A stretch of DNA of 64,000 nt, from NCBI GenBank assembly GCA_030145055.1, contig JAQYWK010000003.1:310001-374000 (forward strand), in the 5' to 3' direction. Position numbers and translations under genes: made by a program. Source of the stretch: Desulfovibrio sp. (lineage in GTDB: Bacteria; Desulfobacterota; Desulfovibrionia; Desulfovibrionales; Desulfovibrionaceae). The notes beneath the pieces are model-generated. The model was given only the letters and a program-made list of their open reading frames with translations. It was not told the origin of the DNA and ran no database searches. Shown piece after piece: positions 955 through 27,912 of this stretch (within the stretch, counting starts at the first letter, position 1; each line of letters starts with the position of its first letter).

Positions 955-1722
955 TTAAGTCCAAACCTTCATAAATTCAGCGCTACTTTTACCTTCATCA
1001 ATATGACGAATAAGAGCAGATCCGAAAACCGCCGCGTCGACCAGACCTTCGAGCTGTTCTAACTGCGACGGGTGCTTTAGGCCGAACCCTAGGGCTACGG
1101 GTATATCAAATATTTCCTTCGCGTGCTTAAGCCCTACTTTGATCTCTTCAGGCAAAGAATCGCGATCGCCGGTTGTTCCGAGCACTGATACGAAATAGCA
1201 GAACCCGTTCCCGCCATTTGCATATAGCTTCATACGCTCAGGCTCAGTATTTAAGCCGACTAGAGGCACTAATGCTACCTCGTTTTCAGCGAGCAGATCA
1301 CGAAAATCAACACCCTCTTCGAAAGGTAGGTCAGCAATGATTAGACCATTTACTCCGGCGGCGTTGGCATCTTTTGCGAACTTTTCAAGTCCATATTGCA
1401 AGACGGGATTGTAATATCCCATCAGTACGATGCCTGCGTTTATCTGCGGACGAACTTCAGCAAGTCCTTCGATAATCCATTTAAGATTAACTCCTGCATC
1501 TAGGCACTTCATAGAAGCCGCTTCCACCACTGGTCCATCAGCAACAGGATCGGAAAAAGGCATTCCAATTTCAATTATATCTGCGCCATTTGCGTCTAGC
1601 TCTAGAATTTCTTTCCAGAACACTTCCTTGGTTGGATATCCACCGGGAAGAAACGGAATAAGAGCTGTGCGCCCTTTTGCATTGGCATCATTTATTTTAT
1701 CAGCAAGTGTTGTAATACTCAT
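955..1722 (-). CDS. trpA: Tryptophan synthase alpha chain
   Basis: This 255-residue protein cleaves indole-3-glycerol phosphate to indole and glyceraldehyde 3-phosphate and hands indole to TrpB. The stretch IEIGMPFSDPVADGP carries the catalytic Glu and Asp of the family. The ORF extends 29 codons further upstream into trpB, but MSITTLADKIN is the normal start for the family and is preceded by GGAGCAAATAAA, a good ribosome site; the longer start is rejected. It is the last gene of the aromatic operon and begins 13 bases after the trpB stop. Confidence 0.97.
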   Translation of the reverse strand: MSITTLADKINDANAKGRTALIPFLPGGYPTKEVFWKEILELDANGADIIEIGMPFSDPVADGPVVEAASMKCLDAGVNLKWIIEGLAEVRPQINAGIVLMGYYNPVLQYGLEKFAKDANAAGVNGLIIADLPFEEGVDFRDLLAENEVALVPLVGLNTEPERMKLYANGGNGFCYFVSVLGTTGDRDSLPEEIKVGLKHAKEIFDIPVALGFGLKHPSQLEQLEGLVDAAVFGSALIRHIDEGKSSAEFMKVWT

Positions 1723-1735
1723 TTTATTTGCTCCA

Positions 1736-2914
1736 CTATTTTCCGTGCTGCGCAAGGTAATCATCCAAGATATCCATATCTTTATCACCACGACCAGACA
1801 GATTAACAATTACATTTGCATCTTTAGGAATGATATCTTTGTTCTCGATAGCCCACGCTAGTGCATGTGAACTTTCAAGAGCAGGAAGAATTCCTTCCTT
1901 TTGACAAAGCATCTGGAAAGCATTGATAGCCTGACTATCGTTGACCATGCCAAACTCAGCCCTACCAGTATCATGTAAATGAACATGTTCCGGCCCTACT
2001 CCTGGGTAATCCAGTCCAGCGGCAATAGAATGTGATGGAAGTATCTGCCCGTCATCAGTCTGTAATAACAACGTATTCATTCCGTGAAGCACTCCCGGAG
2101 TACCAAGATTAATCGGTGCTGAATTTGTACATCCAGGCTTCCCAGTTCCGGCAGCCTCTACGCCCACTATCTTAACGGATTTTTCATTAACAAACTCGTG
2201 GAACATACCAATTGCATTGGACCCGCCACCAACACAGGCAACGACCATGTAAGGCATTTCGCCAGTACGTTCTTTAAACTGCTGTTTAGCCTCGCGCCCG
2301 ATTATAGACTGGAATTCTCTGACTAAAAGCGGGAACGGATGCGGGCCTGCTGCTGTTCCGAAACAGTAATGCGTGGTGCGCTGATTTGCGATCCACTGGC
2401 GAAGCGCCGCATTAATAGCATCTTTCAATGTCTGGGTGCCGGAATGAACCGGAATACATTTAGCTCCAAAAAGCTCCATGCGGCGTACATTGTGAGACTG
2501 ACGTTTAACGTCAGTTGCGCCCATGTAAATATCACATTCTAGATCAAGGAGGGCCGCGGCTGTTGCTGTTGCAACCCCGTGCTGACCTGCTCCGGTTTCA
2601 GCGAGCATCTTTGGCTTACCCATCATCTTAGTAAGCAGAGCCTGACCAACTGTGTTGTTGATTTTATGCGCTCCGGTATGTGCTAGATCTTCGCGCTTCA
2701 GCCAGAGGTTGAAACCAAGTTCGCGTGAAAGATTTTGGCAATGAGTAAGAGCTGTAGGACGTCCTACAAAATTCTTGAGTAGACTGGTGTATTCCTGCTG
2801 AAATTCTGCCGACTTTAAGATTTTACCCATAGCCTCTTCAAGTTCTAGAAGCGGAGGCATGAGCAGTTCAGGCACAAACTGTCCACCAAAATCTCCGTAG
2901 TATCCTCTTTTCAT
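1736..2914 (-). CDS. trpB: Tryptophan synthase beta chain
   Basis: This 392-residue PLP enzyme condenses indole with serine to give tryptophan. It begins with the typical YGDFGGQFVPELL and carries the PLP lysine in HTGAHKINNTVGQ. The phosphate-binding glycine run CVGGGSNAIG is also intact. Length and motifs fit the TrpB1 class that works as an alpha2beta2 complex with TrpA. Its ATG overlaps the trpF stop by 4 bases (ATGA), implying translational coupling. Confidence 0.98.
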   Translation of the reverse strand: MKRGYYGDFGGQFVPELLMPPLLELEEAMGKILKSAEFQQEYTSLLKNFVGRPTALTHCQNLSRELGFNLWLKREDLAHTGAHKINNTVGQALLTKMMGKPKMLAETGAGQHGVATATAAALLDLECDIYMGATDVKRQSHNVRRMELFGAKCIPVHSGTQTLKDAINAALRQWIANQRTTHYCFGTAAGPHPFPLLVREFQSIIGREAKQQFKERTGEMPYMVVACVGGGSNAIGMFHEFVNEKSVKIVGVEAAGTGKPGCTNSAPINLGTPGVLHGMNTLLLQTDDGQILPSHSIAAGLDYPGVGPEHVHLHDTGRAEFGMVNDSQAINAFQMLCQKEGILPALESSHALAWAIENKDIIPKDANVIVNLSGRGDKDMDILDDYLAQHGK

Positions 2915-3549
2915 GACTGATTCCTCTTATTTGCTAAGTGCACTGAAACAAAAGCTGCACTCAATTTATATTTATCTTTTATACCGGGGCTGACTTCAAC
3001 GCCGGAATTAAGGTCAACACCACTCGGCTTCGCAGCGCTTATGGCACCCATCAAATTTTTAGCTGATAACCCGCCGGCCAATAGCCATGGAATACGAATT
3101 TTCACTTCTGAAAAGATCGAACAATCGAGTGGCTTCCCATGACCTCCACCAGAACTTCCTGCGTCGAAAAGAAGATAGGTGCAATGCGGAGTAAAACGGT
3201 CAATATCCTCTTGAAACTCTTTCACAGAGTCATACCGCTGCGGCCAAAGAACTTTAATAATGCGGTTCTTTCCAACGGCGTTACAAAACTCTTCGTTCTG
3301 CCCGCCATGAAGCTGTGCATAATCAATCTTGCCGTTTTTTAAAATTTCAAGAACTTCTGCCGCGCTCTGCTTTACAAATACACCAACTTTATTGGCCTTT
3401 TCGGTAACAATTGAACTGGCAAAATCAACATCAACACAACGAGGGCTTGATTGATGGAAAATAAAACCTAAAAAATCAGCGCCCAATTCTTCACACGCAT
3501 CTACATCTTCAACGCGAGTCATACCGCAAACTTTTATGAGTAAGGTCAT
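2911..3549 (-). CDS. trpF: Phosphoribosylanthranilate isomerase
   Basis: This 212-residue single-domain (beta/alpha)8 enzyme catalyses the Amadori rearrangement of PRA to CdRP. The N-terminal KVCGMTRVED contains the catalytic cysteine, and LLFDAGSSGGGHGKPLD carries the catalytic Asp and the phosphate-binding Gly run. The C-terminal GVDLNSGVEVSPGIKD is the second phosphate site. It overlaps trpC by 4 bases at its start and trpB by 4 at its end. TrpF and TrpC are separate proteins here, not fused as in E. coli. Confidence 0.97.
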   Translation of the reverse strand: MTLLIKVCGMTRVEDVDACEELGADFLGFIFHQSSPRCVDVDFASSIVTEKANKVGVFVKQSAAEVLEILKNGKIDYAQLHGGQNEEFCNAVGKNRIIKVLWPQRYDSVKEFQEDIDRFTPHCTYLLFDAGSSGGGHGKPLDCSIFSEVKIRIPWLLAGGLSAKNLMGAISAAKPSGVDLNSGVEVSPGIKDKYKLSAAFVSVHLANKRNQS

Positions 3550-4325
3550 CGTACTGCCCCCGCAACCAAAGATGCCAGTTTATTTTCAGGACTCGCGTTT
3601 GACATTATCGAGGTTCCGACAAGTACGCAGTCATAACCTAGTTCAGCCATTTTCGTGCAATCGTCAGGCTCATTAATGCCACTGGCGCAAATCCATATTT
3701 CATTATCATTGCGCTCTTTAATGAACTCGACTGACCGGCTCATATCGATACCGAGATTATCAAGATCACGATTATTTATTTGAATAATCCGCGCTCCGGC
3801 ATTCTTCGCACGCATAAGGTCCTCCATATCGAAAGCCTCAACCACCGCATCAAGTCCGGCAGCATGAGTTTTATCAATCATTTCCTTAAGCAAAACGTCA
3901 TCTGCGAACATTCGTACTATAACTAATAGGGCGGACGCTGGAGTTGACGCTGTCTGGACCACTTGCAAAGGATCAACCAGAAAATCTTTACGCAGCATGG
4001 GCAATCCGCACGGCTTGATTTCATCAAGATAACCAAGGCTACCTTTGAAATAAAGTTCTTCAGTCAAAACTGAAATTGCAGAAGCACCGCCCCGTACGTA
4101 CATATTAGCTATATCAACCGGACCAAGCTCAAGGTTGATAATACCTTTTGATGGAGAGGCTCTTTTATATTCGGCGATAACTTTCATGCCGGACTTGTCA
4201 CGCTTAATTGCATCAGCAAACGAAGGTCGCTTACCGGTGTAAAGCGCGGGAAGTTTATCTTCCGCCTCAAGCTTGCGGAGCATGTCCACTTCGCCCTGTT
4301 TGCCTATGCGAAACTTTTCAAGCAT
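3546..4325 (-). CDS. trpC: Indole-3-glycerol-phosphate synthase
   Basis: This 259-residue enzyme closes the indole ring of CdRP. IAEYKRASPSKG is the canonical N-terminal substrate site and includes the catalytic Lys. LRKDFLVDPLQV carries the second catalytic Lys, and IQINNRDLDNL and ILVGTSIMS-like segments complete the barrel. It begins just 3 bases after the trpD stop and overlaps trpF by 4 bases. Confidence 0.97.
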   Translation of the reverse strand: MLEKFRIGKQGEVDMLRKLEAEDKLPALYTGKRPSFADAIKRDKSGMKVIAEYKRASPSKGIINLELGPVDIANMYVRGGASAISVLTEELYFKGSLGYLDEIKPCGLPMLRKDFLVDPLQVVQTASTPASALLVIVRMFADDVLLKEMIDKTHAAGLDAVVEAFDMEDLMRAKNAGARIIQINNRDLDNLGIDMSRSVEFIKERNDNEIWICASGINEPDDCTKMAELGYDCVLVGTSIMSNASPENKLASLVAGAVR

Positions 4326-4328
4326 TTC

Positions 4329-5318
4329 CTAATACTCCTTACTTACGCCAGTGGATACTTTGGCTTTTGCTTTCTCAATTCCATCGGCAAGACTGATTCC
4401 ATCAAGTAATGAAATCGCGGCCCCGAGGTTTAATGCTACCATATCAAGCATAGGCTGCGGAGCTGTTCCCCTCAGAACTTTGCGTATAGTTTCAAGCGCA
4501 TTCTTGCGGTCTGTAACTGCGACATCTTTCGGATCTGAAATCTCAAAACCATAGTCAGCAGGATTAATTTCAAGTTCAGTGAGTGTGCCATTATCTACAA
4601 GAATAGCTTTATTAACACCAAAAGGTGTCAGCTCATCAAAATTACCAGCTCCGTGAACAACATAAGCTTTTTCAACTTTTGTCAAAGCGAGAACTTCTGC
4701 CATAAGGCGCATAATTTCAGGTCTACCGACACCCAGTACCTGATGCGTAGGGCGGGCAGGATTTAAAAGCGGCCCCATAAGATTGAAAAGAGTTGGAATA
4801 CCAAGCTCTTTCCTGATGGGTCCGACTATGCCGAAAGCTGGATGATAGTTGGGCGCAAAAAGGAACACGAAATTCTCACGCTCAAGAACGTCAGGAACAT
4901 CTTCGGCAGTTGTTCCAACTGGAATTTCAAGTTCTTCCAATATGTCAGCACTTCCGCACGAAGAGGATACGGCCCTGTTACCGTGTTTAGCAACCTTATA
5001 TCCCATATCGGCAAGATACAAAGCCACCGCAGTTGAACAGTTAAAGCTATTACTCCCATCTCCACCAGTTCCGCAGGTATCAATATAAGGACCGCTCAAA
5101 CCTTTAACGAGTTTTGCTTTCTTAAGAGCAGCCTTTACACCCGAGGCAACTTCTGTCGCGGTTTCACCCTTTGTGCGCAGCCCCATGAGCAAAGCTCCGA
5201 CCTGCACATGGGAAACTTCTCCCGCAAAAAGAGCTCTAAAAACCGAGTCCGCCATATCCTCTGAAAGATCATTGCCTGCGGCAAGTTCATTTAAAGCCGA
5301 GGCTACACATTCCGCCAT
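4329..5318 (-). CDS. trpD: Anthranilate phosphoribosyltransferase
   Basis: The 329-residue product transfers phosphoribose from PRPP to anthranilate. The PRPP site [14 protein letters not shown] (GTGGD motif) is intact, as are [18 protein letters not shown] for anthranilate and PRPP binding and [12 protein letters not shown]. It is a free-standing enzyme, not fused to TrpG. The gene lies 37 bases downstream of trpG in the operon. Confidence 0.97.
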
Positions 5319-5355
5319 TATACTTCCCCCATATCCTTATATTCTTGAGATTTGC

Positions 5356-5928
5356 TTAAATATTACCATCAAGGAAGTTCTTTAGAAGCTTCGGCCCATC
5401 TGGAGTCAAAATTGACTCTGGATGAAATTGCACTCCCGCCCATGGACGGTCTTTGTAGCGCATTCCCATTACTTCTTTCTGATCAGTCCAGGCAGTGAGT
5501 TCCATCATATCAGGAGCGTCATCAACATTCACAACTAAGGAATGGTAACGACAAACCTGAAACGGATCACCCAGACCGCTAAAAAGCCCATCATTATTAT
5601 GGTAAACTTGCGATGTTTTCCCGTGCATGATGCGTCCCGCACGGACAACTGATGCTCCGCCGAATTGACCGAGAGTCTGATGACCGAGGCAAACACCAAA
5701 TACGGGAATGTCCTTTGGCAAGCGCGACAAAAATTCAAGGCTCAGCCCTGCGTTTTCCGGACGACTTGGTCCGGGAGAAAGACAGACGCGCTCAAGTTTA
5801 CCGGATTCAGCAAGTTCCAGAATTTCTTCGCGATCATTCCTTAGAACCAGAGGCTCAGCACCTAACTGCTGAAACGCCTGCACCAAATTGAAAGTGAATG
5901 AATCGTAATTATCAACAAGCAAAAACAT
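5356..5928 (-). CDS. trpG: Anthranilate synthase component II (glutamine amidotransferase)
   Basis: This 190-residue class I amidotransferase supplies ammonia to TrpE. FGVCLGHQTLGQFGG has the nucleophilic cysteine, and VQFHPESILT carries the catalytic His and Glu. The ORF extends about 100 codons upstream inside trpE in another frame. The true start is MFLLVDNYDSF, preceded by GGAGGGTGGCG, so trpE and trpG overlap by 17 bases, which suggests coupled translation of the two subunits. Confidence 0.97.
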   Translation of the reverse strand: MFLLVDNYDSFTFNLVQAFQQLGAEPLVLRNDREEILELAESGKLERVCLSPGPSRPENAGLSLEFLSRLPKDIPVFGVCLGHQTLGQFGGASVVRAGRIMHGKTSQVYHNNDGLFSGLGDPFQVCRYHSLVVNVDDAPDMMELTAWTDQKEVMGMRYKDRPWAGVQFHPESILTPDGPKLLKNFLDGNI

Positions 5929-7324
5929 CGCCACCCTCCGACTGCAAAATTTCCCGTAAAACTCTTGCCTTATTATTGCATTCTTCCCATTCCATTTCAG
6001 GAATGGAATCATAAACAATTCCAGCCCCTGCCTGCCAATGGCACTTGCCATCTCTGACCCACATGGAACGGATGGTGATACCAGTATCGAGGTTAATGGA
6101 ATCTTTATCCAAACCGATGAAACCAATGGCTCCGCCGTATGGTCCACGGGGAACTTCTTCAATTTCAGCGATAAGTTCCATAGCTCTGATTTTCGGAGCA
6201 CCAGACAAAGTGCCCGCAGGGAAAGTAGCCTGTAAAACATCTATCGCATCGTGGTCGTCGCGAAGATCCGCTTCGACATATGAAGTCAGATGCATGACGT
6301 GGCTGAAATATTCAACCTGCATAAACTTCTCAACGCTCACAGTGCCCGGTTTTGCAATGCGCCCGAGATCATTACGGCCGAGATCAACAAGCATCACGTG
6401 TTCCGCGCGCTCTTTCGGATCGGAGAGAAGTTTTTCGGAATTCTTGCGGTCCCCAGCAGCATCGGCTCCTCTAAGACAAGTCCCTGCGATGGGCCGAACC
6501 TCAAGTCTACCCCCTTCACAACGAGCCATCATTTCAGGTGATGATCCGAGCAGAATCTCTTCACGGCTGAACTTCATATAGAACATGAATGGAGATGGAT
6601 TCGCCTGACGAAGTCTACGATAGAGGTCAAAAGAATCTCCGCTGAACGGCGCGGAAAAACGAGTGGACAAGACCACCTGAATGCACTCACCTTCTGCGAT
6701 AAGATCTTTAACTTTTTTAACACCTTCAATATATTTCTCACGTCCCGGAGAAACTGTAGGTTCACCAACGACTGTCGGTTCACATTTTCTATTTAAGTCC
6801 TGAGGCGTGAATTCCGGTTTTGCTCCTTCATCTAAAGATAGAAAGCAACAACGATGCTTAAGATGGTCAAACAATACTGCGCGTCCCGGCAAAGCGAGGC
6901 GGACCTCAGCATCTTTAGCCGGGATTTTATCTGCCAACTTAGGCTCGAGCATCCCTGCGATACCATAACCAAGAGTTCCGTAGAGTCCTCTCGTTAAAGC
7001 CGGAAGCGGACCAACTTCTTTCTGAGTATTCACGTGCAGAGCTTTCATTACAGCCCGAAGACCTTCAAGAAAGTCCATACCGGAATACTGAGCAAGCCCT
7101 GCCAGACGAGAATCAGCACATTCAACAGAAAGCTTCCCGCGCACAGGAGTCAAAGAAAGTCTAAAATCCCAAGCGATAAGACTGTAACGCCCAAGCCTTC
7201 CATCAACCTCAGCACTTTCCAAAAGTATTCCCGGTGCATCCCCAACTAGTCCTAGATAAAGACTGATCGGAGTCTGCACGTCAGCCGGCAACCATTTGCC
7301 ATACTGCGTCAATTCAATTTTCAT
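5912..7324 (-). CDS. trpE: Anthranilate synthase component I
   Basis: This 470-residue protein converts chorismate plus ammonia to anthranilate. The C-terminal chorismate-binding domain is intact (LLGSSPEMMARCEGG, RPIAGTCLRG, ERAEHVMLVDLGRNDLGR, GAPKIRAMELI). The N-terminal ILLESAEVDGR matches the LLES element used for Trp feedback inhibition in this family, so allosteric control is likely on top of the attenuator upstream. The start is preceded by GGAGTG. The gene follows tyrA after a 112-base gap that holds a terminator-like attenuator. Confidence 0.97.
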   Translation of the reverse strand: MKIELTQYGKWLPADVQTPISLYLGLVGDAPGILLESAEVDGRLGRYSLIAWDFRLSLTPVRGKLSVECADSRLAGLAQYSGMDFLEGLRAVMKALHVNTQKEVGPLPALTRGLYGTLGYGIAGMLEPKLADKIPAKDAEVRLALPGRAVLFDHLKHRCCFLSLDEGAKPEFTPQDLNRKCEPTVVGEPTVSPGREKYIEGVKKVKDLIAEGECIQVVLSTRFSAPFSGDSFDLYRRLRQANPSPFMFYMKFSREEILLGSSPEMMARCEGGRLEVRPIAGTCLRGADAAGDRKNSEKLLSDPKERAEHVMLVDLGRNDLGRIAKPGTVSVEKFMQVEYFSHVMHLTSYVEADLRDDHDAIDVLQATFPAGTLSGAPKIRAMELIAEIEEVPRGPYGGAIGFIGLDKDSINLDTGITIRSMWVRDGKCHWQAGAGIVYDSIPEMEWEECNNKARVLREILQSEGGDVFAC

Positions 7325-7378
7325 ATATTCACTCCATTTTTTTATTATATAGTAAGTACTCGCTTAAAAGCGACACAT

Positions 7379-7412
7379 AAAAAAAGCCGCACCCTCTAGG
7401 AGAATGCGGCTT
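7379..7412 (-). terminator. Intrinsic terminator (attenuator) between tyrA and trpE
   Basis: On the minus strand AAGCCGCA (7412-7405) pairs with TGCGGCTT (7391-7384), followed by seven U residues (7385-7379). The 13-base loop contains TTCTCCTAG. Because trpEGDCFBA lie directly downstream and no other terminator separates them, this must be read through for trp expression, as expected for an attenuator. Confidence 0.85.
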
Positions 7413-7463
7413 AACTTTAATTTAAATGCTATTCTCCTAGTTTTTGTCTTCGCGCCACCACCA
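7396..7463 (-). promoter_or_regulatory. Trp attenuator: tandem Trp codons and antiterminator pairing at the tyrA 3' end
   Basis: Three TGG codons (7463-7455) stand 8, 7 and 6 codons before the tyrA stop (7439-7437). The 10 bases CTAGGAGAAT (7440-7431), which include the stop codon, are perfectly complementary to ATTCTCCTAG (7405-7396) in the terminator loop. Inference: a ribosome stalled for lack of charged tRNA-Trp leaves 7440-7431 free to form the alternative helix and weaken the terminator. A ribosome that reaches the stop covers this segment and allows termination. The spacing fits a ribosome footprint in both states. Confidence 0.7.
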
Positions 7464-8213
7464 AGATGCACGTTCGGAAAGAAGATCCATATCTCCTGAC
7501 GCAGCAAGGCTTAGGAATGAACGAAACAAACGAATAGCTTCAAGGCTATACTGATTTGCACCAGAAATAGTTACAAAAAGATCACTGTCCTGTGTCACCA
7601 TTTTCTTCGCAGCTTCAAGCCTGCGTTTAAAAGATGGAGTCACATACTTTTCAATATTAGGTAGCTCTCTCGCACATGCAAAAAATGCTATGGAGGAGCT
7701 GAAGTTTAAACTTTGAATCATTGCCATTGCCCGGTCGTGCTCTTCTTCTGTTGATTCGAATGCGCCAAAATCTAGCCGTTCAAAAAAATCTTTGACAGCA
7801 GGAAGTGAAGCTTGATCTCCATCACGCTCTGCAACAAGAGCAACCGTTGGATCAAAATCAACAGGAATGGTAGGCCCGAACAAAGGATGGGTTCCAACCA
7901 CAGGACCGTCATAAGCTCTGATCATCTGCTGCAACGGACGCCCTTTAACAGAACCTACATCAGAAAGAACCGCCCCTTTTTTCATATGCGGTACAACCTT
8001 AGGAAGCACCTCATCCATAACGGTTACAGGAATACAAAGCAGCACAAAGTCGCTCTTAGGAAGAAGGCGAGCCATCTCTTCCTCGTCAAGAGGCTGATCA
8101 AACCGGTGTACGAGAATACCCGCACGCTCGGCTTTCAGGGCGAGAAATCCGCCCATCTGTCCTCTTGAGCCGATTACGGCTATGCTGTGAATTCTGTCAA
8201 ACTCAGATTCCAT
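7437..8213 (-). CDS. tyrA: Prephenate dehydrogenase (TyrA family) with WWW tail
   Basis: The 258-residue protein has an N-terminal Rossmann fold (AVIGSRGQMGG) and the VGTHPLFGP segment with the family's catalytic His. SDVGSVKG is also conserved. It oxidises prephenate to 4-hydroxyphenylpyruvate for Tyr synthesis. It is shorter than E. coli TyrA because it lacks the chorismate mutase domain, which is carried by PheA here. The C-terminus reads SWWWREDKN; these three Trp codons sit just before the trpE attenuator and probably act as its leader peptide. The start overlaps aroA by 11 bases. Confidence 0.93.
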   Translation of the reverse strand: MESEFDRIHSIAVIGSRGQMGGFLALKAERAGILVHRFDQPLDEEEMARLLPKSDFVLLCIPVTVMDEVLPKVVPHMKKGAVLSDVGSVKGRPLQQMIRAYDGPVVGTHPLFGPTIPVDFDPTVALVAERDGDQASLPAVKDFFERLDFGAFESTEEEHDRAMAMIQSLNFSSSIAFFACARELPNIEKYVTPSFKRRLEAAKKMVTQDSDLFVTISGANQYSLEAIRLFRSFLSLAASGDMDLLSERASWWWREDKN

Positions 8214-9549
8214 TTAAGCAACCATTACCTTTTTTAATTTTATCCCATTCTTTCCAGAAATTCGGGAATGACTTTCTAACGCAATCCGGCTCTTCCGCAA
8301 TAGCATCGATACCCGCTAAGCTGAAAATAGCCGTACTCATTGCAAGTCTGTGATCATCATATGTCGAAAAGACAATCTTTTCACCCTTTTTGAGGGGGCT
8401 AGGATTAATTTTAATAAAATCGTCGCCAACTTCGGCGTTTCCGCCAGCTCGAAAAACTTCTGTAGCGCTTGCATCTAAGCGATCACATTCTTTAATACGT
8501 AAATGAGCTACATTAGTTATAGTAGTAGGGCTATCTGCAAAGGCGGCTGCTACTGCTACTGTCGGAACTAAATCAGGACAAAGTCCCATATCAACTTCAA
8601 TGCCGTGGAGTTTTGATGGATAAACCGTAACCCCGCAAGAGTCGCTTTCGATTTTAGCGCCCATAGCTTTCAAAATATCTATAATGGCTCTATCGCCCTG
8701 CAAAGAATCAATGGCCAAACCATCAATCCGAACAGGATGCTGCCCGACAGCTCCGGCAGCCAAAAAGTATGATGCGTTACTCCAGTCACCCTCAACACGG
8801 CAATTCTCGCTGTAATATTTTGAAGGCTGTACAACGAATCTAATCTCGCCTGGAATGACCTGTTCTACAAGGCGCCAATCTGTCTGCACCCATTTGCCAT
8901 CTTTAATAACTTCGACAGCGAATGACACACCGAAATCTTCCATCACATTCAGGGTCAAAGCAACATACGGCCAAGATACGGCTTTTTTACCGACAACCTT
9001 AATCGTTGTGCTCTTTTTCGCATATGGAGCGGCAAGAAGCAAACCGGACAAATACTGGCTACTTTCCTCAAGTGAAATTTCCATTTCACCGCCGCTGAAA
9101 CCATCCGATTCAAGTATTACTGGCGGATATCCTTCTTTCTCAGCAAAAGTAACTTTCACACCTTGAGATTCAAGCGCGCTAGTTAATTCACCGATAGGAC
9201 GATCGTGCATGCGGGGTGTCCCCTGAATGCGAAACAACCCTTTGCCCGCTCCTGCAATCGCAGTGATGAGTCTGCAAGTTGTCCCAGAATCCCTCATCTC
9301 GAGGATAGCAGGTTCTTTCTCGCCACCTTTGGGACCTCCGCTCATACCTATTACTATAGTAGATCCGGATTCCACGCTGAACTCAGCACCCATTGAGGTG
9401 AGGCAATCCATAGTGCGCTTAATATCATTACTATCAAGTGGATCAAGCACCACTGTAGTTCCTGCCGAAAAAGCGCCCGCAATAAGCGCTCTGTGTGACA
9501 AAGATTTCGAAGAAGGAGCCTTAATTTTAATACATGTATCGGAAGACAT
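8203..9549 (-). CDS. aroA: 3-phosphoshikimate 1-carboxyvinyltransferase (EPSP synthase)
   Basis: This 448-residue enzyme joins shikimate 3-phosphate and PEP. The substrate-binding KSLSHRALIAGAF, RDSGTTCRLI, and the C-terminal KECDRL and YDDHRLAMS motifs are present, so an active enzyme is expected. It starts MSSDTCIKIKAPSSKS and lies 39 bases after pheA in the operon; its stop overlaps the tyrA start. Confidence 0.96.
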   Translation of the reverse strand: MSSDTCIKIKAPSSKSLSHRALIAGAFSAGTTVVLDPLDSNDIKRTMDCLTSMGAEFSVESGSTIVIGMSGGPKGGEKEPAILEMRDSGTTCRLITAIAGAGKGLFRIQGTPRMHDRPIGELTSALESQGVKVTFAEKEGYPPVILESDGFSGGEMEISLEESSQYLSGLLLAAPYAKKSTTIKVVGKKAVSWPYVALTLNVMEDFGVSFAVEVIKDGKWVQTDWRLVEQVIPGEIRFVVQPSKYYSENCRVEGDWSNASYFLAAGAVGQHPVRIDGLAIDSLQGDRAIIDILKAMGAKIESDSCGVTVYPSKLHGIEVDMGLCPDLVPTVAVAAAFADSPTTITNVAHLRIKECDRLDASATEVFRAGGNAEVGDDFIKINPSPLKKGEKIVFSTYDDHRLAMSTAIFSLAGIDAIAEEPDCVRKSFPNFWKEWDKIKKGNGCLNGI

Positions 9550-9588
9550 CCGTTTATCCCTGTGTTTTCTTAAAAGCAGTTGTAAGAA

Positions 9589-10692
9589 CTAAAACTTGCT
9601 GCCGCCCTGCGAACCGCTAGGATAACTACCTAGAATTCTGAAAGTAAGACAGCGTTCCTTGAGTTCATCAATAATACTTTCATACTCATCGGTGCTTAGA
9701 TCACCTTGAAGATCCACAAAAAACATATACTTCCACTTTTCGCCAAGGAAAGGACGGGATTCAAGCTTGGTCATATTAATTTTTTTGCCCGAAAGGACAC
9801 TAAGAACACCAACCAATGCACCCGGCTTATCAGGCGTGGTAAAGAGGATAGTTGTTTTATCTCTTTTACCTTCAATACCGGGCTTAGGCCCAATTATCAA
9901 AAATCTTGTCCAGTTGTCCGGCAAATCTTCAATTGCTTCGGCAACAACATGAAGACCAAAAATATTTGCGAGCTTAATGTTACCCAGAGCCGCGCAGGAA
10001 TCATCGCCATCCGCAACCATTGAAGCTGCTTTAGCTGTTGAATCCACGGACTGTAGAGTCGCATTTGGCAAGTTGGCGCGTAGCCAGCCAGCACACTGCT
10101 CAATAGCTTTGGAGTGCGAGTATACAGTCTTGATCTTATCCAGTCCTGATCCTTTAGTAATAAGGCCATGACTGATGCGGCTGTAAACTTCATCCTGAAT
10201 AAAGACGGGATAACGCATGAACAAATCTACGTTCTGCCCGACTGTACCCTTGAGTGAATTTTCAAGAGGAATGATACCTAGATCTGCTTCCCCTTTAGAA
10301 ATTGCGACAAAAATATCTTCAAAATTATTCTTAGGAACTAGATCAGCCTGACGGCCCATGTGCTCAAGACCTGCGAAGTAAGAAAATGTTCCTTCGGGGC
10401 CGAGATAAACCACTCTTTCAGGGCGCTGTAATCTGCGCGAAGAAGATATGATCTCACGGTATATACCCTCAAGATGCTCTTCTGGAAGCGGCCCTGGATT
10501 TCTATCACTAAGCCCTTTAAGCACTTCTTGCTCACGGAAAGGCTTAAAAATCTGGTCATCAGATCCAGCCTTTACTGCCCCGACAGATAAAGAAGCTTCA
10601 GCCCTTTTATTAAGTAGCTCAAGAATCTCTGTATCGAGAGAGTCGATTGTTACCCTGAGACCATCCAATTGTTCTTTTTTAGAATCTGACAT
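9589..10692 (-). CDS. pheA: Bifunctional chorismate mutase / prephenate dehydratase (P-protein)
   Basis: This 367-residue protein has three parts. Residues about 1-90 are an AroQ-type chorismate mutase (LRVTIDSLDTEILELLNKR). Residues about 95-270 are the prephenate dehydratase domain, including the DNWTRFLIIG segment with the TRF motif. Residues about 280-360 are an ACT domain with KPGALVGVL and LESRP, the GALV and ESRP elements that bind Phe. It makes phenylpyruvate and is likely inhibited by Phe. It also supplies prephenate for the mutase-less TyrA. Confidence 0.96.
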   Translation of the reverse strand: MSDSKKEQLDGLRVTIDSLDTEILELLNKRAEASLSVGAVKAGSDDQIFKPFREQEVLKGLSDRNPGPLPEEHLEGIYREIISSSRRLQRPERVVYLGPEGTFSYFAGLEHMGRQADLVPKNNFEDIFVAISKGEADLGIIPLENSLKGTVGQNVDLFMRYPVFIQDEVYSRISHGLITKGSGLDKIKTVYSHSKAIEQCAGWLRANLPNATLQSVDSTAKAASMVADGDDSCAALGNIKLANIFGLHVVAEAIEDLPDNWTRFLIIGPKPGIEGKRDKTTILFTTPDKPGALVGVLSVLSGKKINMTKLESRPFLGEKWKYMFFVDLQGDLSTDEYESIIDELKERCLTFRILGSYPSGSQGGSKF

Positions 10693-10698
10693 TTCCTA

Positions 10699-11685
10699 TT
10701 AGTCCTCGACGATTTCTTCACTGATGCGCATTCCGAAATGGCGACCAGCATCGTCTAAGCGGCATAAAATTTCGTCGCCTGGCTTGATTGTTACTACACT
10801 TACAGGCTCACCTGCACCGCTTACTACTCTGATTGTTTCTGCGTTCTGCAAAAAGACCTTACCAGTTGCAGGACCCTCAGGGGTTGCAACTTCGGCAGTA
10901 ATCAACAGCATTGGTCTAACTTCAACCTTACAGCGGCCTACGGTTGCAATAGAAGTTTTACCTTCCGCATCAACTATAAGGACTTCTGTACCAGAAGCGA
11001 GCTCTTGAAGATAGGTTGTGCGATCGCCCGGCATCTGTGCGTAGGCATGAACAGCTCCGGCATTAACGCGAAACGGGCGAGCAGCAACGTATGGGTTGGA
11101 CTCAGTTTCGCCATGTACCAAAAATGTAAATGCGCTTGAATTACCGACTAGCATTCCCTGCCCTTTCTTAAGCATGGAAATAGTATCAACACAAACACGG
11201 TGACCAAGTCCTGCGGATTCAATCTTGGTAATTTTAGCTTTCTGTAAATCCATGTGACCCTGACTGAGTTTTAGTTCAGCGACAATTGCTTTCAACTCAT
11301 GTGCTGCTTCTGGAAGAACAACAATGGTATCTGCGCCTCTTTCAAGAACTCCTGCGGCAAGAGTTGCGCGGTCTAGTGACTCAACTTCAAGAGCAAGTTT
11401 ATCGACCTGTGCAAGAATGTTTTCAACTGGGATAATTTCCCACCCTTTAGAAAGACAAACTTCTGTGCCATCTTTTGCTAGATCAATGGCGATGTCTTCA
11501 TCACTCTTCTGATTAATTGCGACAAGCGGCATTTCTTCGGGAGTAATAACAACGACTCTGCCAAGTTCAGTTATCTCATCCTTGTGCTCGGACTCAGCAA
11601 GAACGGCGTCTACACCGGACTCGAGAGCTAGAGTCAAAAGGTTTTTATCGAACGGTATTGCTTTGTATACTATCTTTTTCATCAT
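10699..11685 (-). CDS. 3-dehydroquinate synthase II (archaeal-type AroB')
   Basis: The 328-residue product belongs to the DHQS-II family (MJ1249 type), which turns 2-amino-3,7-dideoxy-D-threo-hept-6-ulosonate into 3-dehydroquinate with NAD. Recognisable stretches are VDTISMLKKGQGMLVGNSSAF, cut here to VDTISMLKKGQGML, and RPFRVNAGAVHAYA. The ORF can open at an upstream TTG, but two adjacent ATGs (11685 and 11682) follow GGAA at normal spacing; I chose the first. It works with the ADTH synthase encoded just upstream, replacing DAHP synthase and AroB. Confidence 0.93.
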   Translation of the reverse strand: MMKKIVYKAIPFDKNLLTLALESGVDAVLAESEHKDEITELGRVVVITPEEMPLVAINQKSDEDIAIDLAKDGTEVCLSKGWEIIPVENILAQVDKLALEVESLDRATLAAGVLERGADTIVVLPEAAHELKAIVAELKLSQGHMDLQKAKITKIESAGLGHRVCVDTISMLKKGQGMLVGNSSAFTFLVHGETESNPYVAARPFRVNAGAVHAYAQMPGDRTTYLQELASGTEVLIVDAEGKTSIATVGRCKVEVRPMLLITAEVATPEGPATGKVFLQNAETIRVVSGAGEPVSVVTIKPGDEILCRLDDAGRHFGMRISEEIVED

Positions 11686-11699
11686 GATTTCCAATTATG

Positions 11700-12497
11700 T
11701 TATTCGCCGATGTATTTAAGAGCAGCTTCAACAGTTTCATCCTGATGAACCACTTGGCTGAGAGCTTCTACCAATCTTACGCGGTTCTTATGCTGGAAGA
11801 CATTACGTCCGACAGAAAGACCGGAACCACCTGCGCTGATTGAATCAGAAACCATCTGGAGGAAAGCGCGAGTTGAATCAAGCTTTGGTCCGCCAGCAAT
11901 AACAACCGGAATACAAACGCCATCAACAGCGCGTCCGAAAGATTCAGGATCACCAGTGTAGGAGACTTTAACAATATCAGCACCAAGCTCTTCACCGGCA
12001 CGGGCGCAATGAGCGACAACATCTGGATCGAACGCATCTTTAACTTTTGGCCCGCGAGCGTATACCATTGCAAGAACAGGCATCCCCCAACTGGAAGCTT
12101 TAGAAGCAACTTCTCCGAGATCACGAAGCATTTGAGTTTCAGTTATATCACCGAGATTTACGTGAACACTTACAGAATCAGCACCGAGACGAAGAGCATC
12201 TTCTACTGAGCCGACCAAAGTCTTCGCATTAGGGGTAGGAGAAAGTGATGTACTTGCAGAAAGATGAACAATAAGACCAACATCCTGACCTTCACTACGA
12301 TGTCCGCAACGAACAAGGCCTTTGTGCATAAGAACCGCATTGGCTCCGCCAGTTACCATATCACCAACAGCATTACGCATATTTTCTAGTCCGGAAATAG
12401 GACCTTCGCTGATACCATGGTCCATAGGGACGATTATTGTTCTTTGAGTTTCTCTATTCAAAATCCTTTCAAGCCTGATCTTTTTACCAACATCCAT
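11700..12497 (-). CDS. 2-amino-3,7-dideoxy-D-threo-hept-6-ulosonate (ADTH) synthase, class I aldolase fold
   Basis: This 265-residue protein is related to class I fructose-bisphosphate aldolases. It has [11 protein letters not shown] at the N-terminus, SVHVNLGD and [13 protein letters not shown]; the Lys of the latter is the expected Schiff-base residue. In the MJ0400 family it condenses 6-deoxy-5-ketofructose 1-phosphate with aspartate semialdehyde, the first step of the alternative shikimate entry. Its position as first gene of the aromatic operon and next to DHQS-II supports this rather than glycolytic aldolase activity. It follows a leader peptide and attenuator. Confidence 0.92.
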
Positions 12498-13048: not shown

Positions 13049-14419
13049 ATGTCTTTTAAATTTCCATCTATTAACCGTAAAGTATCAGCTATCGCAGCGA
13101 TGCTAATTGTAGCTGCACCAACCGCAGCCTTTGCAGGCGAAGAGTATTTGACTCAGACCCACGCTAACATCTTATGGACACTTCTTGCAGCCATACTGGT
13201 TATGTTCATGCAGGCAGGCTTCGCATGTGTTGAAGCAGGATTCACTCGCAGTAAAAGTGCCGGTAACATCCTCATGAAAAACTTTCTTGATTTTTCAGCC
13301 GGATCTATCATCTTCTTCCTTTTCGGATTCGCACTGATGTTCGGTATGGACGCAGGCGGCTTCATCGGAACTTCCGGCTTCGGACTTGAAGGCGTCGGGC
13401 TCACTGATGCAGACGGGCAGTGGACTCTTACCTTCTGGTTCTTCCAGTCAGTATTTGCCGCAACAGCCGCAACAATCGTATCCGGCGGTATCGCTGAGCG
13501 TACTAAATTTAGCGGATATATCCTTGTAACCATGATCGTAACAGGACTTATCTACCCTATTTCAGGCCACTGGGCATGGGGAAGTCTCTGGCTCGGCGAC
13601 GCGGGTTCAGGCTGGCTTGAAGGGCTAGGATTCATGGACTTCGCTGGATCTACTGTAGTTCACTCAGTAGGTGGTTGGATCGCACTCGCAGGAGCTATCG
13701 TTCTTGGACCACGTATCGGAAAATACACAGCAGACGGTAAAGCAAAAGCTATCCCCGGACACAACATCCCAATGGCTGCACTTGGTGTGTTCATTCTCTG
13801 GTTCGGTTGGTTCGGATTCAACGCTGGTTCCACAACAACTGCGGACGGCTCTATCGGCCTCATCGCATTAGTAACAAGCCTCTCTGCTTGTGCCGGAACA
13901 CTTGGCGCAATGTTCACATCATGGTTCAGATTCGGCAAACCTGATATTTCCATGACTTGTAACGGAGCACTTGCAGGGCTCGTAGGTATCACCGCAGCTT
14001 GTGCAACTGTATCTCCAGCAGCATCCATTATCATCGGCCTTATCGCTGGTATCCTAGTAGTTCTGTCCATTGAATTTATCGACAAAGTACTCAGAATTGA
14101 TGACCCAGTTGGTGCAGTTTCCGTCCACGGTGTATGTGGAGCATGGGGAACACTAGCTTGTGGACTCTTCACAACTCCAGTTCTCAACGATGGCGTAGGT
14201 GGACTCTTCTACGGCGGCGGATTCGCTCTCGTAACCCCACAGCTTATCGGAATCGCAGCATGTTTCGTATGGGCATTCGGCGCAGGACTCATCGCTTTCG
14301 GCCTAGCTAAAGCAACCATCGGAATCAGAGTAACAGCAGAAGAAGAAATGAAAGGTCTTGATATCGCTGAGCACGGTTCTGAATCATACAACGGCTTCCA
14401 GATCTTCACCAACGAATAG
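13049..14419 (+). CDS. amtB: Ammonium transporter AmtB
   Basis: This 456-residue membrane channel has a cleavable signal peptide (ending PTAAFA) followed by eleven expected membrane segments. The twin pore histidines sit in STVVHSVGGW and GAVSVHGVCGAWG. It conducts ammonia into the cell under nitrogen limitation. GGAGGAGG lies ahead of the ATG, and glnK follows after 24 bases, the usual pairing in which GlnK plugs the channel. Expression is probably from the sigma-54 promoter just upstream. Confidence 0.97.
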   Translation: MSFKFPSINRKVSAIAAMLIVAAPTAAFAGEEYLTQTHANILWTLLAAILVMFMQAGFACVEAGFTRSKSAGNILMKNFLDFSAGSIIFFLFGFALMFGMDAGGFIGTSGFGLEGVGLTDADGQWTLTFWFFQSVFAATAATIVSGGIAERTKFSGYILVTMIVTGLIYPISGHWAWGSLWLGDAGSGWLEGLGFMDFAGSTVVHSVGGWIALAGAIVLGPRIGKYTADGKAKAIPGHNIPMAALGVFILWFGWFGFNAGSTTTADGSIGLIALVTSLSACAGTLGAMFTSWFRFGKPDISMTCNGALAGLVGITAACATVSPAASIIIGLIAGILVVLSIEFIDKVLRIDDPVGAVSVHGVCGAWGTLACGLFTTPVLNDGVGGLFYGGGFALVTPQLIGIAACFVWAFGAGLIAFGLAKATIGIRVTAEEEMKGLDIAEHGSESYNGFQIFTNE

Positions 14420-27028: not shown

Positions 27029-27103
27029 AGGGACATCGTTCAATTGGCAGGACAGCGGATTCTGATTCCGTCAATCAAGGTTCGAGTCCTTGTGTCCCTG
27101 CCA
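27029..27103 (+). tRNA. tRNA-Gln(CTG)
   Basis: The acceptor stem AGGGACA pairs with TGTCCCT, discriminator G and encoded CCA. The anticodon loop TTCTGAT gives CTG. The T arm AAGGTTCGAGTCCTT is normal. It is identical to the copy at 27740. Confidence 0.95.
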
Positions 27104-27125
27104 GCAACATTTTTTTGATTAATGC

Positions 27126-27203
<78 letters not shown>

Positions 27204-27315
27204 AATCAAATTAGTGAGACTCGCTAAAGCCAATAGAGTCGTGCTGGCTGCAACAACATTACCCGCTTCATTTACGCGATCAGGCTCGCAGAAGCAGGTA
27301 CGATTTTCTAGATGC

Positions 27316-27393
<78 letters not shown>

Positions 27394-27404
27394 CGAATTT
27401 GAAA

Positions 27405-27432
27405 AAGGACTGAATCGCAAGATTCAGTCCTT
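27405..27432 (+). terminator. Terminator of the first tRNA module
   Basis: AAGGACTGAATC pairs with GATTCAGTCCTT around GCAA and is followed by a T-rich tail. Confidence 0.9.
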
Positions 27433-27698
27433 TCTTCGTTTTTGAGGGCACTCAGATATTGCCCTCACAAAAGCAAGCCTCGTTTGTGACAACTACAAGT
27501 TTACAATTAGAGAGTCACTCCTCATACAAGACAAAAAACTCTCTACCACCTCCTACAGCCACCTAATCAGCATTTTCAAGACAGCAGTCCATATTAGTAA
27601 GAACGAAAGCTTACAGACGGTATTCCTAACGCAAACAAACAGTAAGTTTGTTAGACAATAAATACTTCAACATTTTTTAAATTTTGTTCGATAAGTTG
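27433..27698. other. Gap between tRNA modules
   Basis: About 270 bases without a supported gene. A hairpin GAGGGCA (27444-27450) with TGCCCTC (27460-27466) lies just after the terminator; the rest is AT-rich. Confidence 0.4.
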
Positions 27699-27727
27699 TT
27701 GACAGAACACCCCTTTCCACATAGAAC
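27699..27727 (+). promoter_or_regulatory. Sigma-70 promoter of the second tRNA module
   Basis: TTGACA, 17 bases, TAGAAC, ending 12 bases before the second tRNA-Gln. Confidence 0.7.
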
Positions 27728-27739
27728 CACTTTCGTTGC

Positions 27740-27814
27740 AGGGACATCGTTCAATTGGCAGGACAGCGGATTCTGATTCCGTCAATCAAGGTTCGAGTCC
27801 TTGTGTCCCTGCCA
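27740..27814 (+). tRNA. tRNA-Gln(CTG), second copy
   Basis: Same 75-base sequence as 27029-27103, with encoded CCA and anticodon CTG. Confidence 0.95.
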
Positions 27815-27834
27815 CACAAATTTCTTTTAGATGC

Positions 27835-27912
<78 letters not shown>

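Follow-up and report, generated by a model that had tools for sequence, protein, structure and literature searches.

Background

The usual view of leader peptides is that they are short, dedicated to their task and disposable. In the aromatic supraoperon of Bacillus subtilis a TRAP attenuator lies inside a larger aromatic run, between an upstream aromatic gene and trpE, and attenuators of the TRAP type carry 9-11 closely spaced (G/U)AG repeats. The locus analysed here resembles this arrangement in that a putative trp attenuator lies inside a run of aromatic genes before trpE. However, the B. subtilis sensor is the TRAP protein on its (G/U)AG repeats, whereas the candidate sensor here is a run of Trp codons, and inspection by eye from the tyrA stop to the terminator loop gave five scattered (G/U)AG triplets and no repeats of the TRAP type. 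With Escherichia coli trpL (NC_000913.3, analysed with the same code) the locus shares tandem Trp codons, an arm that in E. coli follows about 14 nt after them, and a terminator before the trp genes. The E. coli leader is a dedicated peptide of 14 aa, while the candidate leader here is the tail of an enzyme of 258 aa, and the four-segment leader of E. coli has a 1:2 protector/pause hairpin, which was not detected at the loci with a tyrA tail.

A WWW motif that senses Trp in a full-length protein gene, and affects trp expression, is reported for YtgCR of Chlamydia (PMC7755916, accessible text). YtgCR acts in trans, as a repressor that is made less upon stalling, whereas the tyrA tail would act in cis, by antiterminator and terminator. 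The same gene run joined to the trp operon was reported in D. vulgaris; however, the attenuator predicted there precedes the first gene of the run, and none is described between tyrA and trpE in the accessible sections of that paper (PMC1173090). An attenuator at the latter position would be missed by a screen such as that of PMC2965389, which by its accessible text drops terminators closer to the upstream than to the downstream gene, because the terminator here is nearer to the upstream gene. Other papers (PMC12218461, PMC3840689, PMC3766115, PMC1262725, PMC4833913, PMC5343134) deal in their accessible parts with other systems, and a term search of the available text of PMC545781 for tryptophan and trpE gave no match. 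The initial annotation of this DNA had known of no described case of this design, and no trp attenuator in an enzyme tail was found described in the open-access full-text papers searched. Ribosome-mediated trp attenuation is already known; what appears to be new is an enzyme gene that would serve as the leader, conserved across an order.

Results and discussion

The window, i.e. the whole stretch of 64,000 nucleotides that was analysed, holds on its minus strand the genes for an ADH synthase/aldolase and 3-dehydroquinate synthase II, followed by pheA, aroA, tyrA and trpE, G, D, C, F, B and A. The features are the following.

8203..12497, minus strand: upstream aromatic genes, i.e. DhnA-type aldolase/ADH synthase, 3-dehydroquinate synthase II, pheA and aroA (ORFs, domain models)
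7437..8213, minus strand: tyrA (prephenate dehydrogenase, 258 aa), its last codons being the putative leader (Pfam PF02153 and NCBIfam prephenate dehydrogenase models)
7455..7463, minus strand: three consecutive Trp codons, the candidate sensor, codons -8, -7 and -6 from the stop (sequence; 3-4 Trp in 116 of 118 embedded loci)
7439-7437, minus strand: tyrA stop codon TAG
7431..7440, minus strand: predicted antiterminator 5' arm, CTAGGAGAAT, straddling the tyrA stop codon
7396..7405, minus strand: predicted antiterminator 3' arm, ATTCTCCTAG, overlapping the 5' arm and loop of the terminator
7384..7412, minus strand: intrinsic terminator hairpin, 13 bp, 3-nt loop, -19.6 kcal/mol (terminator scan and folding; pair covariation in the genus)
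7383-7379, minus strand: T run after the terminator hairpin
5912..7324, minus strand: trpE, the first gene under the proposed control, ATG at 7324 (domain models)
955..5919, minus strand: trpG, trpD, trpC, trpF, trpB and trpA, the rest of the trp operon (ORFs, domain models)
934-897, minus strand: terminator-like hairpin at the end of the trp operon

Of these genes, trpF and trpB were recognised from their translated ORFs alone. A search of the window against Rfam gave only tRNAs at the gathering score, a level that Trp_leader (RF00513) did not reach, and Trp_leader is absent as well from the seven sub-threshold matches at 7300-7520. Elsewhere in the window, at 27029-27909, there is a block of five tRNA genes of two kinds, which recur with identical scores, as if duplicated.

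The C-terminus of TyrA reads ...SWWWREDKN (tyrA ends in ERASWWWREDKN), and the three TGG codons are located 8 to 6 codons before the stop (7463-7455, with the stop at 7439-7437), as the initial annotation had stated. It had further claimed that the ten bases across the stop are perfectly complementary to the loop of a terminator. The complementarity is indeed exact (7440-7431 with 7405-7396), but the partner is not confined to the loop: besides it, six bases of the terminator 5' arm and one of the 3' arm take part. In place of the 8-bp stem with a large loop assumed earlier, terminator scan and folding give a stem of 13 bp with a loop of 3 nt. The argument that both helices could coexist only as an implausible pseudoknot is therefore dropped; it is not needed either, as antiterminator and terminator compete directly because the partner overlaps the terminator stem. 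None of 100 dinucleotide shuffles and none of 59 terminators from other genera match the pairing of the window's arm with its terminator. Of the 13 terminator-bearing gene ends in the window, tyrA has the second-best pairing energy, after that of a 129-aa ORF that ends at 13155 and lies antisense within the ORF at 13049-14419. Considered on its own, the pairing in the window is suggestive, and as it is not unique there, the weight of the case comes from conservation.

Together with its relatives, the sequence of the locus makes it very probable that this is a ribosome-mediated Trp attenuator with the C-terminus of TyrA as its leader peptide. RNA polymerase would transcribe the aromatic genes through tyrA, followed by ribosomes. 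With ample charged tRNA-Trp, a ribosome would pass the Trp codons, cover the arm over the last codons and stop, and with the arm covered the terminator would form ahead of trpE. When charged tRNA-Trp is scarce, the ribosome would stall at the Trp codons, its front edge stopping just short of the arm, and the free arm could pair with the emerging 5' half of the terminator, upon which polymerase would continue into trpEGDCFBA. Trp shortage may also cut TyrA, the enzyme of the competing branch, because stalling delays its completion; if true, one RNA would act as a two-way switch at the branch point, because TyrA competes for chorismate-derived carbon. Direct support exists for the sequence elements, their conservation, the pairing with the own partner across genera and the fixed spacing from the Trp codons; the response of the attenuator to Trp and the effect on TyrA are what I infer. 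Three features by which attenuation is recognised are present: a translated ORF in which codons for the regulated amino acid are clustered directly ahead of the switch (116 of 118 loci have 3-4 Trp), a mutually exclusive antiterminator and intrinsic terminator before biosynthetic genes, and, as geometry only, an arm that a stalled ribosome leaves free and that a ribosome finishing the ORF covers.

When the window RNA is folded according to ribosome position, a Trp codon in the A site gives the antiterminator a probability of 0.99 as far as the emergence of base 7388, and the terminator prevails from the emergence of 7386 onwards. A ribosome with the stop codon in its A site precludes the antiterminator, and the terminator forms instead. 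About nine bases are held inside RNA polymerase, which together with these switch points means that the choice would favour the antiterminator when polymerase is in the T run. These foldings, together with a spacing of +17 nt between Trp codons and arm, agree in their geometry with the earlier proposal that a ribosome on the Trp codons leaves the arm open and one at the stop covers it. In the full-length window RNA the terminator wins even with a stalled ribosome (the median for the genus is 8.3 kcal/mol in favour of the terminator), so the switch in this genus must be kinetic. The window's genus has the weakest antiterminators among the groups, and the antiterminator is at least as stable as the terminator in 91 of 129 loci. 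A 1:2 protector hairpin as in E. coli was not detected: over the loci the arm shows no excess of pairing either with the linker (median z 0.35) or with the 60 nt upstream (median z 0.17). A ribosome that trails polymerase along a long gene could already be in step with it and need no pause hairpin, which could explain why this hairpin is missing. In one E. coli system a terminating ribosome interferes with a terminator at distances of up to 27 nt (PMC4824070, accessible text). With 24 nt between the tyrA stop and the hairpin, the window is just inside this limit, so termination with ample Trp may be incomplete.

In the window's family 199 genomes were searched, with a TyrA match in 177, and 150 tyrA ends were read, the weakest TyrA matches being left out. 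A locus was counted as embedded if a terminator with a folding energy below -15 kcal/mol starts at most 100 nt from the stop, with trpE behind it and Trp codons before it; the arm was not used as a filter. This combination of terminator, trpE and Trp codons is present in 75 of the 150 loci, from 13 genera, and the Trp filter removed no locus that had both terminator and trpE. Five other families of the order contributed 40 loci, of which 38 show a terminator (energy below -12) and the arm, the two exceptions having an LWW tail and no trpE that could be found; family f6 is represented by a single genome. Five further loci of the window's family (L151-L154 and L156) bring the total to 118 of the 195 tyrA ends read, in six families. 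L155 was dropped as a copy of the genome of L032, L223-L226 were dropped as matches to other chorismate enzymes, and the terminator of L043, with a weak T run that escapes the script, was entered by hand. In 117 of the 118 embedded loci trpE lies behind the attenuator, and in L166 the sequence ends before the position of trpE. The Trp run is WWW in 111, WWWW in five and WW in two of them.

The suggestion of the initial annotation that relatives be compared for tandem Trp codons and pairing thus yields Trp codons, arm and terminator together in 118 of 195 tyrA ends. The pattern it had named as contrary, a terminator kept with the Trp codons gone, is not seen beside tyrA, two loci having WW only; the one case is a separate trpE locus (L215, see below). 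Outside the order, the best TyrA matches in the sample of the rest of the phylum end before the tail. A Trp run is missing from all 20 outgroup tyrA ends read, and the stretches read behind these genes, up to about 1.5 kb long (in one case only 292 bases), gave no trpE.

Named genomes were scanned with an alignment query, a single-protein query having given no match, and the best 80 of 234 loci were considered; these overlap with the main set and are not added to the 118. By the same test 33 of these best 80 loci are embedded. They include Pseudodesulfovibrio pelocollis, Halodesulfovibrio spirochaetisodalis, Nitratidesulfovibrio liaohensis and N. oxamicus, and records titled Humidesulfovibrio, Desulfocurvus, Desulfonauticus, Desulfonatronaceae and Desulfohalobiaceae. 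Another 13 of the best 80 (Solidesulfovibrio, Fundidesulfovibrio and others) have an adjacent trpE without a detected attenuator; one of these, L265, has a tail identical to that of L043, where the script misses the weak T run. No trpE was found beside tyrA in 34 of the best 80, including Desulfovibrio piger.

Several other types of junction were observed. In five loci (L045, L053, L056, L064 and L068, from g13, g22 and g10) tyrA has WWW and an adjacent trpE, with no T-run terminator detected; two of them, L045 and L056, have a GC-rich hairpin without a T run between the genes. Another control is possible at junctions of this type. In g41 (L067, L069, L070) and in loci of g25 (e.g. L083, L098, L100, L102) trpE starts at the tyrA stop or within a few bases of it, the attenuator is absent and the Trp run is reduced to WW. 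In L019, L021 and L025 the gaps from the tyrA stop to trpE amount to 534-867 nt.

Over the 118 loci the arm core begins 17 nt past the last Trp codon (quartiles 15-18, sd 2.7), whereas relative to the stop it ranges from -20 to +11 (sd 9.1), so that the arm is held at a fixed distance from the Trp codons and not from the stop, which moves. In shuffled sequences the spread of the arm after the Trp run is 14.6, and in E. coli K-12 trpL (NC_000913.3) the same code places the arm at +14. In many lineages the arm lies inside the coding sequence of tyrA and encodes its last residues (e.g. GGVRPS, GGPAS). The stop codon was considered as the key element and is ruled out by the range of -20 to +11 nt. 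Counted from the first base of the stop, the hairpin starts at a median of 38 nt, and at 24 nt or more in 116 of the 118 loci.

One could imagine a general sensor of translation, in which any slow ribosome near the end of tyrA alters termination with no specificity for Trp. A terminator can be blocked by a ribosome that sits at a stop codon close by (PMC4824070, accessible text), and the arm would become free whatever caused a stall upstream of it. However, such a sensor does not account for Trp runs of 3-4 at a fixed distance from the arm in 116 of 118 loci, nor for the Trp runs of free leaders described below, and with the median of 38 nt most hairpins are too far away to be blocked directly by a ribosome at the stop codon. 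I regard this possibility as extremely improbable.

The match between arm and terminator favours the attenuator as well. In 66 of the 75 family loci no more than five of 100 shuffles equal the native pairing; in the remaining nine more than five do so, up to 15 of 100. For 24 genus representatives the duplex of the arm with its own terminator has a mean of -22.8 kcal/mol, against -17.8 kcal/mol (sd 0.57) when partners are permuted, and none of 20,000 permutations reaches the own-partner mean. The own terminator is the best partner for nine of the 24 and the second for five, the others ranking 3rd to 16th, as expected because the arms are G-rich. Across 129 loci, 82 different arm pairs occur. 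Within the window's genus the terminator pairs covary, and no covariation of the antiterminator was found (16 sequences, 8 pairs, 88.9% of cells paired). This last result speaks against the attenuator, as do the nine loci with more than five equal shuffles and the fact that only nine of the 24 arms have their own terminator as the single best partner. The idea of the initial annotation that an enzyme gene doubles as Trp sensor gains support from this fit to the own terminator across genera and from the conservation among relatives.

Alternatively, the terminator could merely end or dampen the aromatic transcript, with a promoter for trpE between the terminator and the ATG, the Trp codons and the pairing being incidental. 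A TATAAT at 7349-7344 of the window would suit such a promoter; it is missing by eye in the near relatives L002 and L003, and a consensus scan gave no promoter-like site on the minus strand between the terminator and the trpE ATG. RNA-seq data for Maridesulfovibrio hydrothermalis (published as D. hydrothermalis) bear on the same question. At 10 versus 0.1 MPa trpE, trpG and trpD are significantly down, while neither tyrA nor any of the four genes ahead of it has a significant entry in the accessible part of the expression table, and at 26 versus 0.1 MPa all ten cluster genes are down (PMC4162548, Table 1). However, at 10 MPa trpC and trpF have no entry either, the stimulus is pressure, and non-significance is not constancy. 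From the expression table alone, this break fits a control point between tyrA and trpE, and an internal promoter would equally let trpE, trpG and trpD change apart from tyrA. Yet a bare terminator explains neither the pairing with the own partner nor the constant spacing from the Trp codons nor the Trp leaders of displaced trpE genes, and I consider this alternative highly unlikely.

These displaced genes were sought in 30 genomes, 28 of which had been chosen as having no trpE beside tyrA. Four gave no trpE match, two had an adjacent trpE after all, and 24 separate trpE loci were obtained (L198 and L200-L222). A short ORF with WW or WWW precedes 23 of the 24 (e.g. MNVFSNTISNSFKGWWWRIQLRGGDVRA), and in 13 of the 24 the Trp run is followed by GGDVR or GGVR, as in several tyrA tails. 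In the 11 free leaders that were measured the arm is at +16 (sd 0.8), followed by a terminator; L208, where the script missed the terminator, is not among them. L215 has a separate trpE with a terminator and no WW leader, and its clade relatives carry the leader. In L220 two tandem WW(W) leader ORFs precede trpE, with ends at -587 and -181 from the match start, which suggests tandem attenuators.

In a TrpE tree of 175 rows (midpoint-rooted for drawing only) all separate rows but one (23 of 24) fall into a single clade with a support of 100, sister to the embedded genus g38 and nested inside embedded lineages. The remaining row, L198, stands elsewhere and looks like a second separation. Because the clade is nested in lineages with a tyrA tail, its free leaders probably descend from that tail. 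A short dedicated leader in E. coli style is seen in the order only where trpE lies apart from tyrA, and the tyrA-tail form would be ancestral in the order, given its presence in all six families.

The Trp run may also serve the TyrA protein, because it persists in tyrA genes that have no embedded attenuator: 38 of these 77 keep at least three consecutive Trp and 31 more keep WW. On this ground the run could have been kept for the protein and be older than the regulation, so that the attenuator exploits it without its having been selected as a sensor. The run lies in a predicted terminal helix (residues 242-257), a prediction of low confidence for this stretch (residues 251-258 have a mean pLDDT of 57). 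On the other hand, WW or WWW is kept in free leaders, which are not joined to any TyrA, and the tail lies outside the TyrA family models (no match to PF02153 or the NCBIfam prephenate dehydrogenase models passes residue 232, the tail from 233 being beyond them) and is absent in 20 of 20 outgroup ends. Moreover, fewer than three Trp in a row occur in 39 of 77 genes without the attenuator versus 2 of 118 with it. A tree-based test of Trp run against attenuator with independent pairs gave p values of 0.06-1, and with five pairs it cannot reach 0.05. Runs without an attenuator may stem from a role in the protein or from slow decay of a relic. I consider a protein-first history unlikely, with an appreciable chance of being right; it would alter the origin of the attenuator and not its working.

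Conclusions

The end of a gene for a tyrosine-making enzyme appears, in one order of sulfate-reducing bacteria, to do the job of a tiny dedicated leader peptide, the candidate sensor being a full enzyme gene. Taken furthest, this would mean that the ancestral trp leader of the order was the tail of a working enzyme, that the free trpL of one clade was cut loose when the trp operon moved, and that a single stall lowers TyrA and switches on TrpE; I put this forward tentatively, as a plausible account that is slightly more doubtful than secure. With an enzyme gene as leader, one transcript could set the Tyr/Phe genes and the Trp genes separately. Since enzyme tails and free leaders share a similar attenuator core, it may be possible in these bacteria to trace how a leader peptide gene arises.
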